Shown here: positions 637-6,141 of the stretch, in pieces
Position numbering within the stretch: position 1 is the stretch's first letter
Layout of the letters: each line of letters begins with the position of its first letter
Source: Methanococcoides methylutens
GTDB taxonomy: Archaea > Halobacteriota > Methanosarcinia > Methanosarcinales > Methanosarcinaceae
Direction of reading: 5' to 3'
Assembly: GCF_000765475.1 (NCBI RefSeq)
Contig: NZ_JRHO01000002.1
Coordinates: 1-64,000, forward strand
DNA length: 64,000 nucleotides
Notes under the pieces: generated by a model
Databases searched by the model: none
Told to the model about the DNA's origin: nothing
What the model saw: only the letters and a program-made list of their open reading frames with translations
Translations under genes and position numbers: made by a program

Positions 637-744
637 TTGATCCACCTTTATATCATAGTAAAAATAAAGTTATACACCATACAAATATTTTAAATAATAA
701 TTAAGTTTATACAAAAACACTTCTTCAAAAGGAAAAGCATCACT

Positions 745-3700
745 ATGTCATATCAGCTATTAAATCTTAAAAATTGTCTTTGGGAGTCATACTATATTGG
801 ATACAGGAAAGCTATTCGTAAATCTATAAAAGTAGCTTCGGAAGATGAACAAACTATAATTAATAATCGTCTTACATTAATTCATCATTTCCTTATTCGG
901 AGAAAGTATGATCCAGGATTTTATCTATACATTTCAGATCAAATTGCAAATAACAAGGAAAAAGGCACAGTTCTTCCAAGAGTACGATTGATTCTTTCAA
1001 AGCTCCTTTTTGATAATTCTGATGATATTGAAAATTTTATTTATTTCAATGAACATGCTAATGTTATAGATCAATCCAAAAAAGAGATTTATGACGAATG
1101 GGATGCTTCTTTTCAAAAAATAGACGATAAATTCAAAGCTGGATTTCCGCCACATTTAAAAGATAAATTAAATTATCTTTATATGAGGCAAGATATTGCT
1201 GAGAAAAATAAGGATGACGATGAAATTTTATCGGTATCTTCTATAATAGAGGAAATTGACCTTGAACAGAGAAATATTCATCATAACTACACCAAAAAAT
1301 CAGTTTTTTCAAAACCAACATATGAATCAACACATCATATGCTGTTTGCAGACAATACATTCTACTATGGAACAAGTTATACCGAGAAATGGAACTATCT
1401 TTCTAGAAAGTTTGCTATCGAAAATATTCATATGCTTGAGTACTATAGCATTCCATTTAGTCCCCAACACAAAAATATTGCATCGCTTGTAGATGATTTC
1501 TATTTTCATTATTGGATTCTTGAAACTATGCTACAGGTAGGATATAAACAAGAACCAAAAAAATATCCTGATGAAGTAAATGATGTCATAAAAATTGCAC
1601 ATTTTGCATGGTTTTTGGAAAAGGATGAATCTGAAATGTTGGATATTTTGAATAAAAGTTATCCTTTTATTGTAGACATGAAACCTAATGAAGATAAATA
1701 TCCAATATACATGCAGGCTTTCAATTCTCCATACCATTTAGCCGAGTTTGTTTATACAACTGGTTATTTTGATCAGGCAAAGTCAATTTATTCTTATTTG
1801 CTAACTAAAGATGCTAAAACAAAAGGTGAACAATACATTTGTTATCTTTATTTAGGAAAGATAGCTGTTCAGAAAAGTGAACATAAATCTGGTTATAAAT
1901 TACTTTTAAAAGCATTAAAATTAATTAAAAGCTTTTCAGGTCACGAATATGATGTATCGCTAGTTAATTTGTTCCTCTATGAGTCATGTTTTGCTCTAAA
2001 CAAGAAAAAAGAGGCTTCTTTCCATAAAGATGAATACTTTAAACATCTTATGCTTTCCACCCCGGAAGATAAAATAAAATTATGTACTGAAGGCCTTATA
2101 GTTTCGAATCGTCTTATCATTTTTAATAAAAATAATCTGTTCCTTGAAGAACTATTATCTTTAGATGAAGAACCATGCACAGAAATTGTTAATCTATTCA
2201 AAAATAAATTATCATCTACTTCAAGAGATTGTAACTCTCTACTCAAGGAATCGGCTTTAAAATATGGATACTCTTCACATTTAGACAATGTTAACCAGTT
2301 AAGATTCCATTTCCAATTTGAAGATGCTACAAGATATTTGAATACTATTCCTAATATCAACGGTGACAATAATCTATTGCTAACAAAATCAATGATTTCG
2401 TATTTGCTTAACAAAGGAAATATGAATCAATTAGAAAAGAAGACAAGACCATTATTTGAAGATGTTATTTTTCATTATCCAGAAGACAATTTTCCATATC
2501 TATATTTGAGCCTTATAGATTTCGAAATTGGAAATTTTGAGTCAGCTGCCTTGAATTTGGAGAAATCATTAGATATTTCATATGCAACAGGTAATTCTCA
2601 TCAGGCATTTGATTTTTTGTTAACATTAGATATTGATACAAATAAATTACAATCTCCTGCACCCCTAATTGCTTTTGATATGATTATACGAATTTTCATA
2701 AAAGAGCTGGCTTCTACAGGTAAATATCGTGAAATGTGCAATATCTTTGATGGAATAGAGCCATGTCTAGAAAAATATATGAAAACTTTTTTTGCAGATA
2801 TAGGAAATGCTTTTACAGACTTTGGTTTCTTTGAAATGGGACTGAGCTACTATAATAAGTGCCTTGAAAGACTTTCAGCAATTGAAAAAGTCCAAGAACA
2901 TCAGGCTCTTGTATATTGTAACATTGGAACTAATTATGCAAACCAGAATTTGCACCGTGATGCAATAGTAAATTATTCAAAGTCAATCAAACTGAAAAAA
3001 GATTATCATGAAGCATGGAGAAACAAAGCATCATCAGAAGGTTTTTTGTTAAACTATAAAGATGGTGCTAAAAGCATGGAAAAGGCAATTTTTTACCTAA
3101 ATTCCAATGAGAACTACCAATCTGAGAAACTTCAATCATACAGGAAACAAAAAGAAACATACGACAATCTCAGTTCAAGCACAATTCTCTTTACACAAAT
3201 AAAGAATGATCCTGAAGTTGATAAATTGTTAAGAACTGCTGAATCAATAATGTTTAAGCTATCTATGAATAAGCAAATTAAAGAAAGTTTTGATTTTTCG
3301 CTTGTTCTTTTGGAATATGGCAAAGCCGTTGAGACAATGCTTGATGAGCACATCTCTCGGAAGATAAGAAAATACATTTTTGAAGAAGTTCCACTTGAAA
3401 AAAGAAAAAAGTATCTGTACACTGATGGCAAGGTTAAAAATAGATATTTTTATGGAACAAAAAACACACATTCTCTACCACAAACTTTAAAGAACATATT
3501 AAGAGAGGAACCAAAAACAATTTCTTTAGGGCAGTGGGGATATGTTGAAGAGGATCTCAAGAAAGCTAAAAACAATGATGTGGTTAGACTGGTTTCTAAA
3601 TACCTAAAAGAAAATACCCAGTATGATATGCCCAAGATCTATGAAGTGTGTGACACTATCGTAGAGTTAAGGAATGGATCAGCTCATCGTGGGATTAAGG

Positions 3701-3774
3701 GAATAGACGAAGTCTGGGATTTGAGAAAAAGTGTCATTGAACCAATAAATGATGCGATAAAAATAATTTATTGA
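745..3774 (+). CDS. Large TPR-repeat protein with C-terminal HEPN domain
   Basis: A 1009-residue, lysine-rich, AT-rich-coded protein with no signal peptide or membrane segment. Helical repeats fill most of it. The clearest TPRs lie at about residues 725-805 (YCNIGTNYANQNLHRDAI... then KDYHEAWRNKASSEG), with weaker ones around 330-420 and 570-640. The last 170 residues are helical and contain LRNGSAHRG, that is Arg976-Asn-x3-His981. This is the R-x4-H signature of HEPN RNase domains, which cut RNA in many toxin and anti-phage systems. The combination suggests a TPR sensor or scaffold controlling a HEPN ribonuclease. No nucleotidyltransferase antitoxin partner is adjacent. It faces the viperin/kinase operon convergently, with 58 bp between the genes. 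The RNase function is inference; the HEPN motif and the repeats are visible. Confidence 0.7.
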   Translation: MSYQLLNLKNCLWESYYIGYRKAIRKSIKVASEDEQTIINNRLTLIHHFLIRRKYDPGFYLYISDQIANNKEKGTVLPRVRLILSKLLFDNSDDIENFIYFNEHANVIDQSKKEIYDEWDASFQKIDDKFKAGFPPHLKDKLNYLYMRQDIAEKNKDDDEILSVSSIIEEIDLEQRNIHHNYTKKSVFSKPTYESTHHMLFADNTFYYGTSYTEKWNYLSRKFAIENIHMLEYYSIPFSPQHKNIASLVDDFYFHYWILETMLQVGYKQEPKKYPDEVNDVIKIAHFAWFLEKDESEMLDILNKSYPFIVDMKPNEDKYPIYMQAFNSPYHLAEFVYTTGYFDQAKSIYSYLLTKDAKTKGEQYICYLYLGKIAVQKSEHKSGYKLLLKALKLIKSFSGHEYDVSLVNLFLYESCFALNKKKEASFHKDEYFKHLMLSTPEDKIKLCTEGLIVSNRLIIFNKNNLFLEELLSLDEEPCTEIVNLFKNKLSSTSRDCNSLLKESALKYGYSSHLDNVNQLRFHFQFEDATRYLNTIPNINGDNNLLLTKSMISYLLNKGNMNQLEKKTRPLFEDVIFHYPEDNFPYLYLSLIDFEIGNFESAALNLEKSLDISYATGNSHQAFDFLLTLDIDTNKLQSPAPLIAFDMIIRIFIKELASTGKYREMCNIFDGIEPCLEKYMKTFFADIGNAFTDFGFFEMGLSYYNKCLERLSAIEKVQEHQALVYCNIGTNYANQNLHRDAIVNYSKSIKLKKDYHEAWRNKASSEGFLLNYKDGAKSMEKAIFYLNSNENYQSEKLQSYRKQKETYDNLSSSTILFTQIKNDPEVDKLLRTAESIMFKLSMNKQIKESFDFSLVLLEYGKAVETMLDEHISRKIRKYIFEEVPLEKRKKYLYTDGKVKNRYFYGTKNTHSLPQTLKNILREEPKTISLGQWGYVEEDLKKAKNNDVVRLVSKYLKENTQYDMPKIYEVCDTIVELRNGSAHRGIKGIDEVWDLRKSVIEPINDAIKIIY

Positions 3775-3832: not shown

Positions 3833-4438
3833 CTACTGTAGCTTTACAAGTATTCTTTCTAGATTCTGTGTAGCACCCTCTCCCATCTCAACTACATTAA
3901 ACCTTATTCCATACTTTTTTGCTATCTCTGCAGCTTTTTGTCTTTCGAAATCAAGCTCCCAACGGATAATTTCAAGGTCGGTGACCCGTTTCTTCTTAGT
4001 ATCCCTCTGTCTGTGATCCTGGATACGTTCAGGATAAGAATCAAGCAGTATTATGTCCGTATAGAACTTATAATCCATATGAGTAAAAATCACATCGATA
4101 TCTCCAGTCTTCAGATTGTAGACAGTAAGATGTGAATCGATAAGCAGATCTCTCTTGTGAATCTCCTGAATTCTTTGTAGTTTCTCTCTGATTTCCAACC
4201 TGTAGGCATACTTCTCATTTTCAGGTAAGAACTCAAAATGAGCATAGGCTTCTCCCATTATGTCCTGCAGCATGCCAGACCCGGAAGCAAAGCACATATT
4301 GATACTTTGTTTATCTATCTCTTCCAGCACGGTCGACTTTCCAACTCCCCTTACTCCGGTAAAGCAGATCCTTCTAAGTGAATTCAGATCATCCTGAGAT
4401 GAGCCCGAAAAAGAAGAGACTGGGTTAGTTCCAGTCAT
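3833..4438 (-). CDS. AdkA-like P-loop nucleotide kinase, partner of viperin
   Basis: A 201-residue P-loop kinase. The Walker A motif GVRGVGKST is at residues 28-36, an LLIDSHLTV strand matches the VVVDTH region of archaeal adenylate kinase (AdkA), and a basic lid-like stretch RIQDHRQRDTKKKR follows the LLDSYPE strand. About 20 extra residues precede the P-loop. The start is the ATG at 4438, which overlaps the last 14 bases of the viperin gene and has a GAGGTG ribosome binding site inside that gene, so the two are translationally coupled. In vertebrates the viperin gene RSAD2 neighbours CMPK2, a UMP/CMP kinase, and some prokaryotic viperins are reported near nucleotide kinases. The likely role is to phosphorylate the nucleotide that viperin uses or makes. 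Base specificity cannot be read from the sequence. Confidence 0.8.
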   Translation of the reverse strand: MTGTNPVSSFSGSSQDDLNSLRRICFTGVRGVGKSTVLEEIDKQSINMCFASGSGMLQDIMGEAYAHFEFLPENEKYAYRLEIREKLQRIQEIHKRDLLIDSHLTVYNLKTGDIDVIFTHMDYKFYTDIILLDSYPERIQDHRQRDTKKKRVTDLEIIRWELDFERQKAAEIAKKYGIRFNVVEMGEGATQNLERILVKLQ

Positions 4439-5255
4439 AGTTACCACCTCTTCCCAAATACTTGTCTTCATCGACAAGATCAATAAGCTCCATATTCTCC
4501 AGTGATTCGAACGGAATAGTAGAGCGCTGATTGCCCTTACTTAAGAGGATGTTTCCATCAGGTCCTATTATGAAATAGGAGTTAAGCATATCTTCTGCAG
4601 ATTCAAAGGTTGGATAAGAGCCATTGTTAAGCATTAACCCACCATTCAAACTCCTGAAGACGTTAAACTCTTCACTGGTCAGGGTAAGGTCCAGAGCATC
4701 ATCGTTCTGGCCTTTCATGTGGAGTATCTGGAAGACTTTCCATCTGTCAGGGGCCAGGGATAAAATGAACGGCTTCATATCTTCAGAGTAGTTTATTTTG
4801 GTGATAGTTGAGTTAATCTTCAGCTTCATACCGTTCTCATGAACAAGCTTGCAAACCTTTCGAACATGTTCCACATGATTTCCATTTCCCCTCCCCAGTT
4901 GTCTTTCGATCTCTTCATCGACAGAATCGACAGATATGCCCACCCAATCCACGTACTCGCTCATTTCTCTGAGGTTCTTCTCATTGAGCAGAGCCGCATT
5001 TGTGACAATGCTGACAGTAAACCCAATATCCTTTGCCATCTTCAAAAGTTGATTCAGGTTCTTGTATAACAGAGGCTCTCCACCAGCAAAATTAATTTTT
5101 TCAATTCCCTTAGCCTTTAAGGTTTCAAGCTTTTGTCTGCCTTTTTCAATGTCTTTGAATTCCCCACTCATATTTTTGTAAAAGCAAAATCTACAGTTGT
5201 AGTTGCAGTTCATAGTAACGTGCCAGTTTACCGATCTTATTGTTGCGTTTGTCAT
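4425..5255 (-). CDS. Prokaryotic viperin (pVip), antiviral radical SAM enzyme
   Basis: A 276-residue radical SAM enzyme. The viperin signature is present at the N-terminus: NWHVTMNCNYNCRFCFY, with the [4Fe-4S] ligands Cys17, Cys21 and Cys24 in CxxxCxxC. It continues with GGEPLLY (58-64), SIVTNAALL, VGISVDSVDEE, a Gly-Arg-Gly after the sixth strand, KINSTITKINYSEDM and DRWKVFQIL, all in the order and wording of vertebrate viperin and pVips rather than of MoaA or SPASM proteins. Viperins convert CTP, and in prokaryotes also UTP or GTP, into 3'-deoxy-3',4'-didehydro nucleotides that terminate viral RNA chains. The amphipathic membrane helix of animal viperin is absent, as expected. The ATG at 5255 is chosen; a TTG lies immediately before it. 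The kinase gene overlaps its 3' end. The nucleotide substrate is not determinable here. Confidence 0.9.
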   Translation of the reverse strand: MTNATIRSVNWHVTMNCNYNCRFCFYKNMSGEFKDIEKGRQKLETLKAKGIEKINFAGGEPLLYKNLNQLLKMAKDIGFTVSIVTNAALLNEKNLREMSEYVDWVGISVDSVDEEIERQLGRGNGNHVEHVRKVCKLVHENGMKLKINSTITKINYSEDMKPFILSLAPDRWKVFQILHMKGQNDDALDLTLTSEEFNVFRSLNGGLMLNNGSYPTFESAEDMLNSYFIIGPDGNILLSKGNQRSTIPFESLENMELIDLVDEDKYLGRGGNYDWN

Positions 5256-5311
5256 CAATTGAGAATAACCACATTAAAAAACTTAATAATTTTTTAGTTT
5301 TTCCTATTATT

Positions 5312-5329
5312 TAATAAATAGATTTATTA
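5312..5329. promoter_or_regulatory. Palindrome in the divergent viperin / CARF-HTH promoter
   Basis: TAATAAAT and ATTTATTA form perfect 8-bp inverted arms with a 2-base centre. They lie in the only intergenic space (about 115 bp) between the viperin start and the CARF-HTH start. The surrounding sequence is almost pure A/T and carries TATA-like stretches for both directions. A dimeric winged-helix protein encoded next door could bind here and control both genes. In such AT-rich DNA palindromes also occur by chance, so confidence is moderate. Confidence 0.4.
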
Positions 5330-5370
5330 TATAATAGATTAATATTGGTTTGAACATTGAAGGTATAACC

Positions 5371-6141
5371 ATGGCAGAGAAGGACAAAATCCATATAATG
5401 ACTGCAGGTGCAAATGTGCATAATACATTCTCAATAGCTATCTACAATATATCACCAGCGTCCGAAGTTTATGTTATTGCTGAAAAGAGAATATTTGCTG
5501 ATTCAGAAAATCCGAAGACCCAAGAAGCAAGAGAAGCGATTAGAAATTCTATAGGGGATCTAAAAAAGCTTGCAACTCCGATAGCAAAAAAAGGAGTGTA
5601 TGTTAAGATCATAGAAAAGGACACATTAGATCACATAAAAGATGCAGTCTTTGAAATATACAAAAATAATCCTGATGCACAATATTACTTTAACGTTTCT
5701 GGAGGTACAAAGATCTTATCGATTGGTCTGTTCATGATGGCTTTATGGCTTGAAGCAAAACCTTACCACATAGATATGGAAGGTGAAGCTAACGAAATTC
5801 CAATTCCGAAAGTACATATCGAAGATTTCCAAGCAAACCCAAACCGAGTAACAATTCTGAAAATACTGGCTGCGCAAAAACCTTCTGATGATGAGAAACT
5901 GAAGAAACTATCAAGAAAAGAACTATTTAAAGAGTTATCAAAGGAATATATTCCAATCAGAGAGAAAAACAGGACAAAAAGAGAACTTAAAGACGGTGTT
6001 TTCAACTCACTTACATCGAATCTTCTCGACTGGAAACTTATTGGTGAAAAACATGTAGAGGGTAGTAAGAAGGAGAAAGAGTACATTTTAACATCAGATG
6101 GGGAATTCACTTTGAAATTTGTGAGCTTAAAAGGGAAATAA
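5371..6141 (+). CDS. CARF-domain winged-helix regulator (DUF6293/HFX_2341-like)
   Basis: 256 residues in two parts. Residues 1-150 form a Rossmann-like CARF domain: a first strand IHIMTAGAN, then YYFNVSGGTKILSIGL with the diagnostic N-x-S-G-G-T-K (108-114) ligand-binding turn. Residues 160-256 form a winged helix (ILKILAAQ, SRKELFKELSKEY, LTSNLLDWKLI, KEYILTSDGEF). CARF domains bind cyclic oligoadenylates in type III CRISPR systems and probably other nucleotides elsewhere. Archaeal CARF-HTH proteins act as transcription regulators. The ATG at 5371 with GAAGGT six bases upstream is preferred to the TTG at 5350. No cas gene or repeat array is present in the window, so its ligand may come from the neighbouring viperin/kinase/HEPN genes. 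That link is inference. Confidence 0.8.
   Translation: MAEKDKIHIMTAGANVHNTFSIAIYNISPASEVYVIAEKRIFADSENPKTQEAREAIRNSIGDLKKLATPIAKKGVYVKIIEKDTLDHIKDAVFEIYKNNPDAQYYFNVSGGTKILSIGLFMMALWLEAKPYHIDMEGEANEIPIPKVHIEDFQANPNRVTILKILAAQKPSDDEKLKKLSRKELFKELSKEYIPIREKNRTKRELKDGVFNSLTSNLLDWKLIGEKHVEGSKKEKEYILTSDGEFTLKFVSLKGK

Follow-up and report, generated by a model that had tools for sequence, protein, structure and literature searches.

Viperins are common to archaea, bacteria, and animals, and the chemistry of the family, conversion of an NTP into a ddhNTP, yields a chain terminator of viral RNA. The viperin-associated kinases treated in PMC11249213, and in the PADLOC family VakA, are CMPK2 in animals and TMK/dNK-type enzymes in bacteria, and according to a review a kinase lies beside 15% of bacterial viperins. 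The viperin-kinase pairing as such is therefore already known, and the parts of the wider locus, its TPR and CARF proteins included, are catalogued in PADLOC. The locus described here, from the methanogen Methanococcoides methylutens, raises the question of which kind of kinase accompanies an archaeal viperin, and whether the two act as a pair or within a larger system. The window, i.e., the whole stretch of DNA that was analyzed, comprises the first 64 kb of a 190-kb contig from a genome of 2.5 Mb (completeness 99.9%), and it was considered together with 238 genomes of the class and with 37 archaeal viperin loci, the majority of which extended 7-9 kb on each flank.

The viperin gene and the start site in its last codons

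The viperin gene occupies positions 4425 to 5255 of the minus strand and encodes 276 amino acids from an ATG at 5255 (a TTG at 5258 would add one codon). Its product contains the stretches CNYNCRFC, GGEPLLY, and DRWKVFQIL, named as a family signature in the first-pass annotation of this DNA, and matches the PADLOC model for pVips 'associated with kinases' (PDLC02904) at 5.7e-81 and the NCBIfam viperin model NF038283 with 250.9 bits (cut-off 180). MoaA models reached 64-72 bits against cut-offs of 231-325, and among solved structures the viperins (6e-46 to 1.7e-36) ranked before MoaA (2.5e-8). A MoaA/SPASM identity is ruled out by these profile scores, and the tree described below likewise groups this radical SAM protein with the viperins, as had been claimed. 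The radical SAM motif has the form CNYxCxFC, and its cysteines C18, C22, and C25 are invariant in a 16-sequence archaeal alignment. Alignment to mouse viperin (6q2p) pairs KINS with KINS, RWKVFQ with RWKVFQ, and RGGNYDWN with RGGKYVWS; we take the KxN and RWK residues to be substrate-binding. Judged by its sequence, the open reading frame is a viperin. It belongs to the same enzyme family as the prokaryotic viperins (pVips; Bernheim et al. 2021, as cited in PMC11291487), with which it shares the conserved SAM/Fe-S motif, NWH, KINFAGGEP, KxN, RWK, and RGGxYxW as well as a patchy occurrence, but it differs from them in its membership of an archaeal clade apart from the animal and fungal viperins and in its flanking CARF-HTH and TPR genes.

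In a tree of 55 sequences the window viperin groups with those of four other loci, L051, L052, L054, and L055 (97/94). This group adjoins two viperins that have no kinase, and the remaining viperins with a kinase fall into a clade of their own; the tree thus indicates that the kinase has joined at least two viperin lineages. Animal and fungal viperins stand apart (100/99) in the same tree, the outgroup rows of which are long-branched and the deep branching order of which is tentative. No viperin relative was found in the phage collection (E <= 1e-10), and the plasmid collection contained distant viperins only. Second viperins, present at 7/37 loci and often degenerate, follow the kinase or the first viperin at L052 (10268-11092), L054 (9832-10590), L055 (6335-7084), L060 (9774-10526), L061 (8447-9361), L065 (7908-8729), and L071 (9774-10517). 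In several of them neither the RGGxYxW at the C-terminus nor the Lys of RWK is present, and that of L071 lacks the first cysteines.

The kinase ATG (4438-4436) lies inside the final 14 nt of the viperin gene, whose stop codon ends at 4425, and a Shine-Dalgarno-like GAGGTG (4445-4450, minus strand) is located 6 nt upstream of it, which confirms the arrangement noted in the first pass. Viperin and kinase genes are found together at 12 loci, with an identical 14-nt overlap (ATGACTGGAACTAA) in the window and in L051, L052, L054, and L055, and an 11-nt overlap (ATGCCTGGTAA) in L057, L060, and L062, and their association is therefore more than chance. Among the remaining loci, L068 has an overlap of another form, L065 and L067 have the two genes a few bases apart, and at L061 the kinase gene has moved to the far side of the CARF gene. 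In both main overlap types the kinase ATG is made from the conserved C-terminal Tyr codon of the viperin (TAT-G), and in the window the Shine-Dalgarno-like GAGGTGG corresponds to its RGG codons. The RGGxYxW terminus is conserved also in viperins without a kinase. Because the bases concerned encode this terminus, conservation of the start site is not independent proof of coupling; the codons of the viperin C-terminus appear to lend themselves to a downstream start, and coupled translation of the two proteins is plausible on the basis of the arrangement of the genes.

A kinase family related to AdkA and dedicated to viperin loci

The kinase gene (3833-4438, minus strand) encodes a predicted AdkA-like NMP kinase of 201 amino acids with the P-loop GVRGVGKS. 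All 11 intact members of the family match both AAA_17 and AAA_18, and no match to Thymidylate_kin (PF02223) or dNK (PF01712) was found among these 11. Comparison of the family profile with solved structures ranked AdkA-type adenylate kinases first (4e-6), and hhalign aligned the family with AdkA over 164 columns (E 2.7e-11); the profile-profile comparison with archaeal cytidylate kinase covered 68 columns. Moreover, the motifs (V/I)D(T/S)H and, in the lid, R..RD are common to the kinase and AdkA. The proposed resemblance to archaeal adenylate kinase (NF003122; PDB 1nks, 6ln3, 7owe) hence holds along the whole length of the protein in both profile and hhalign comparisons, but the kinase scores 38-39 bits (39.1) with the curated model NF003122, below its cut-off of 155, and shows no sign of a housekeeping role, which characterizes it, at the level of sequence, as a family separate from AdkA. 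A structure model of the kinase, derived from a shallow alignment, had a pLDDT of 40 and was not used.

The PADLOC VakA model (PDLC02911) matches the kinase beside the viperin at 1e-39. It also matches TMK-type kinases, and better, so that VakA membership says little on ancestry; the model appears to be a mixture of two kinds of kinase. A search of the 238 class genomes with this model yielded 11 intact matches above 77 bits, all beside viperins, and one broken copy, and eight of the nine weaker matches that were read are one-per-genome archaeal cytidylate kinases. Within these genomes the kinase family is dedicated to viperin loci. No relative of the kinase was found in the plasmid collection (E <= 1e-3) or in viral contigs. 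The broken copy (L051:8799-9104) stands beside intact viperin, CARF, and TPR genes. The possibility that the kinase is the AdkA or Cmk of its host was ruled out, since the window genome has its own housekeeping Cmk elsewhere and no match to canonical AdkA was detected in that genome; a bacterial-type Adk, read from sequence, adjoins the Cmk.

The viperins of the two bacterial plasmids that were compared, from Nostoc and Pseudoalteromonas, have an upstream kinase that matches Thymidylate_kin and dNK. As in these bacteria and in animals with CMPK2, a P-loop nucleotide kinase gene is found beside the viperin of the window, but the window kinase matches AAA_17/AAA_18 and AdkA, and its gene lies downstream of the viperin gene and overlaps it. 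The Nostoc kinase, the one bacterial enzyme aligned with it, has the P-loop alone in common with the window kinase. The first reading set the kinase apart from the CMPK2 type, and sequence supports this as far as the two bacterial Thymidylate_kin/dNK kinases that were compared represent that type. If archaea have recruited another family of NMP kinases to viperin, they would have met the same need for supply or recycling independently, and comparing the two kinds of kinase would offer a way to test what the kinase does.

In the locus the viperin would convert a nucleoside triphosphate into its 3'-deoxy-3',4'-didehydro analogue, thereby ending viral RNA chains, and the kinase probably either keeps the viperin provided with the triphosphate that it converts or phosphorylates anew the ddh-nucleoside monophosphates set free from RNA. 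A role restricted to the latter, product side, with recycling of the chain terminator instead of NTP supply, is a possibility that we hold to be doubtful, albeit a serious one. It would agree with the kinase forming a family of its own, distant from the other kinases of the host, with bulk NMP phosphorylation being covered already by the housekeeping Cmk and the bacterial-type Adk, and with a nucleotidase-like protein being encoded at the same locus; the AdkA-like acceptor site, however, would equally suit ordinary AMP or another NMP.

CARF and TPR genes as the commoner partners

Divergently from the viperin gene, a CARF-winged-helix protein, a candidate regulator or sensor, is encoded at positions 5371 to 6141 of the plus strand. 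It matches PADLOC Csa3 (PDLC02909) at 1.7e-108 (360 bits), and scores below cut-off with NCBIfam Csa3 TIGR01884 (2.3e-7; 30.4 bits, cut-off 60.2) and just below it with Pfam HFX_2341_N (1.4e-6; 29.2 bits, cut-off 30). With regulators of the Csa3/HFX_2341 type it shares the CARF fold signature, including an N-x-S-G-G-T-K-type motif, and a C-terminal winged-helix region, but its gene is linked to a viperin and not to CRISPR. At the other end of the locus, positions 745 to 3774 of the plus strand encode a TPR-repeat protein (PADLOC TPR PDLC02907, 1327.7 bits) with a putative C-terminal HEPN domain (R976-N977-x3-H981). R-N-x3-H is the signature of HEPN RNases, and the RNxxxH motif is invariant in 20/20 sequences of the TPR protein, in agreement with the R-x4-6-H pattern of HEPN domains. 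The model of the C-terminal region was of medium confidence (pLDDT 75.8); a Foldseek search with it gave no significant match (best E 0.47), and in VIA-align 2 the proteins LsoA, RnlA, HepT, and Csm6 were recovered at Z 6-7, with unrelated helical bundles scoring as high or higher. The HEPN assignment, which is based on the motif and the mid-confidence model, is accordingly a putative one. Beyond the TPR gene, a HAD-fold 5'(3')-deoxyribonucleotidase-like protein with a DMDNVxTDF motif (PHROG 2643, 1.3e-21) is predicted at positions 112 to 642 of the minus strand.

The TPR gene of the window runs against the order viperin, kinase, TPR, HAD of its relatives, in which these genes all point the same way. 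No inverted repeats were seen exactly at its flanks, and the inversion, close to the end of the contig, may be an artefact of assembly. In Pseudoalteromonas the viperin gene is overlapped downstream by a gene for a DUF4145-Sel1-SEC-C protein, which, by analogy, is a possible parallel to the archaeal TPR protein.

Counted over the 37 archaeal viperin loci, which are not independent samples and therefore reveal association but not its strength, the CARF-winged-helix gene is present beside the viperin in 28 (divergent within 200 nt in 26), the TPR gene in 21, and the kinase gene in 12 (11 intact, one broken), all 12 in the archaeal family of the window itself. A nucleotidase is encoded at 6/37 loci, each of them a kinase locus. 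Kinase loci contain the CARF gene in 12/12 cases and the TPR gene in 11/12, and CARF and TPR genes are found at viperin loci of several archaeal families. Reciprocally, the CARF family adjoins a viperin in 14 of its 16 matches in the class genomes, and the TPR family in all 10. The kinase is a minority accessory at archaeal viperin loci, at which CARF-HTH and TPR genes are the commoner partners, and the recurrence of the latter across the 37 loci indicates that the viperin-kinase pair is part of a wider cassette.

The initial description of a dedicated and self-contained viperin-kinase pair can thus be retained for its first half, the kinase occurring only at viperin loci in the class genomes, and is not supported in its second by these counts. 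The overlap of the two genes and the dedication of the kinase to viperin loci, as well as the CMPK2-viperin partnership in animals and the TMK/dNK-type kinases beside bacterial viperins, would fit a pair that acts alone, with the kinase feeding the viperin like animal CMPK2 and the neighbors being unrelated passengers. The recurrence of CARF and TPR genes across several archaeal families, their near confinement to viperin loci in the class, and the CARF gene at every kinase locus speak against such passengers, and we regard this explanation as distinctly unlikely. A literature search found no paper describing the wider viperin locus. The PADLOC Csa3 and TPR models fit the window proteins very well, which suggests that this locus or a close relative was known to those who curated the models.

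Other neighbors were encountered at part of the loci. At L070, L078, L079, and L084 the viperin and CARF genes adjoin a Mokosh-like MkoA helicase, with PLD proteins in some, and L070, L078, and L079 also encode a small stand-alone CARF protein. The viperins of L056, L066, L073, L075, and L080, which have no CARF gene, adjoin an unrelated gene of 540-590 amino acids, for which no Pfam or PADLOC match was found in the two members scanned.

Proposed control of the locus and the possible origin of its signal

Between the viperin and CARF genes, a candidate operator is found at positions 5305 to 5336 in the form of a 32-bp inverted repeat with one mismatch (TATTATTTAATAAAT-AG-ATTTATTATATAATA), which is conserved at L051, L052, L054, and L055, with shorter arms at L052. 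Palindromes as good occurred in 1000 dinucleotide shuffles once for the window, 0 times for L051 and L054, and 95 times for L052. The palindrome is very AT-rich and may in part be core promoter. A promoter-proximal element, CTAAAAAATTATTAAGTTT, precedes the viperin gene at positions 5279 to 5297 (minus strand), and sites like it number two in the 64 kb against 0.06 expected, the sole other one (690-708, plus strand) being located 37 nt before the TPR ATG.

The reading that we favor, and consider moderately probable, is that of a viperin defence locus of Methanosarcinaceae with four accessory parts under control of the CARF protein; it is supported by the confinement, or near confinement, of the kinase, CARF, and TPR families to viperin loci, and by the shared promoter element and the palindrome. 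The CARF-winged-helix protein would probably bind a nucleotide signal and control the locus via the palindrome, the TPR protein with its HEPN-type motif probably serves as a further effector with RNase activity, and the nucleotidase might, more speculatively, trim nucleotide or ddh-nucleotide pools.

CARF-HTH proteins are known as CRISPR regulators, and the similarity of the CARF protein to Csa3 could be taken to mean that it reports the cyclic oligoadenylate of a type III CRISPR system, with the viperin as an ancillary CRISPR effector. However, no match to Cas10 was detected in the 99.9% complete genome of the window, which makes a type III CRISPR origin of the signal unlikely, and Cas10 is present in 2/15 genomes with this CARF family versus 53/223 without it (Fisher p 0.53); we judge this explanation to be very improbable. 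Cas1 is present in the window genome, so that another CRISPR type may exist there. A search of this genome for a CD-NTase gave a lone SMODS match (27.1 bits, cut-off 26.5), which resembles a CCA-adding enzyme by sequence and was rejected.

A more far-reaching version would have a CARF sensor independent of type III CRISPR, perhaps with a viperin product or another infection-made nucleotide as its ligand, control several effectors at once: a ddhNTP synthase, an AdkA-type kinase with NMP or ddhNMP as its substrate, a TPR-HEPN RNase, and a nucleotidase. Taken jointly, these elements form a tentative and rather unlikely proposal. The recurrent CARF-HTH partner points to a defined on-switch for a prokaryotic viperin, and the TPR-HEPN partner to a viperin that does not act alone; all parts of the locus are small and can be expressed in laboratory hosts.

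Two further occurrences of these gene families were noted. At L117 (6923-13152) a member of the same CARF family is found without a viperin, beside a divergent cluster that resembles restriction-modification by sequence. Finally, an archaeal-type viperin is encoded immediately behind a TPR-like open reading frame on a viral contig (IMGVR_UViG_3300038673_000820; L123:3889-8813) that also encodes a major head protein.
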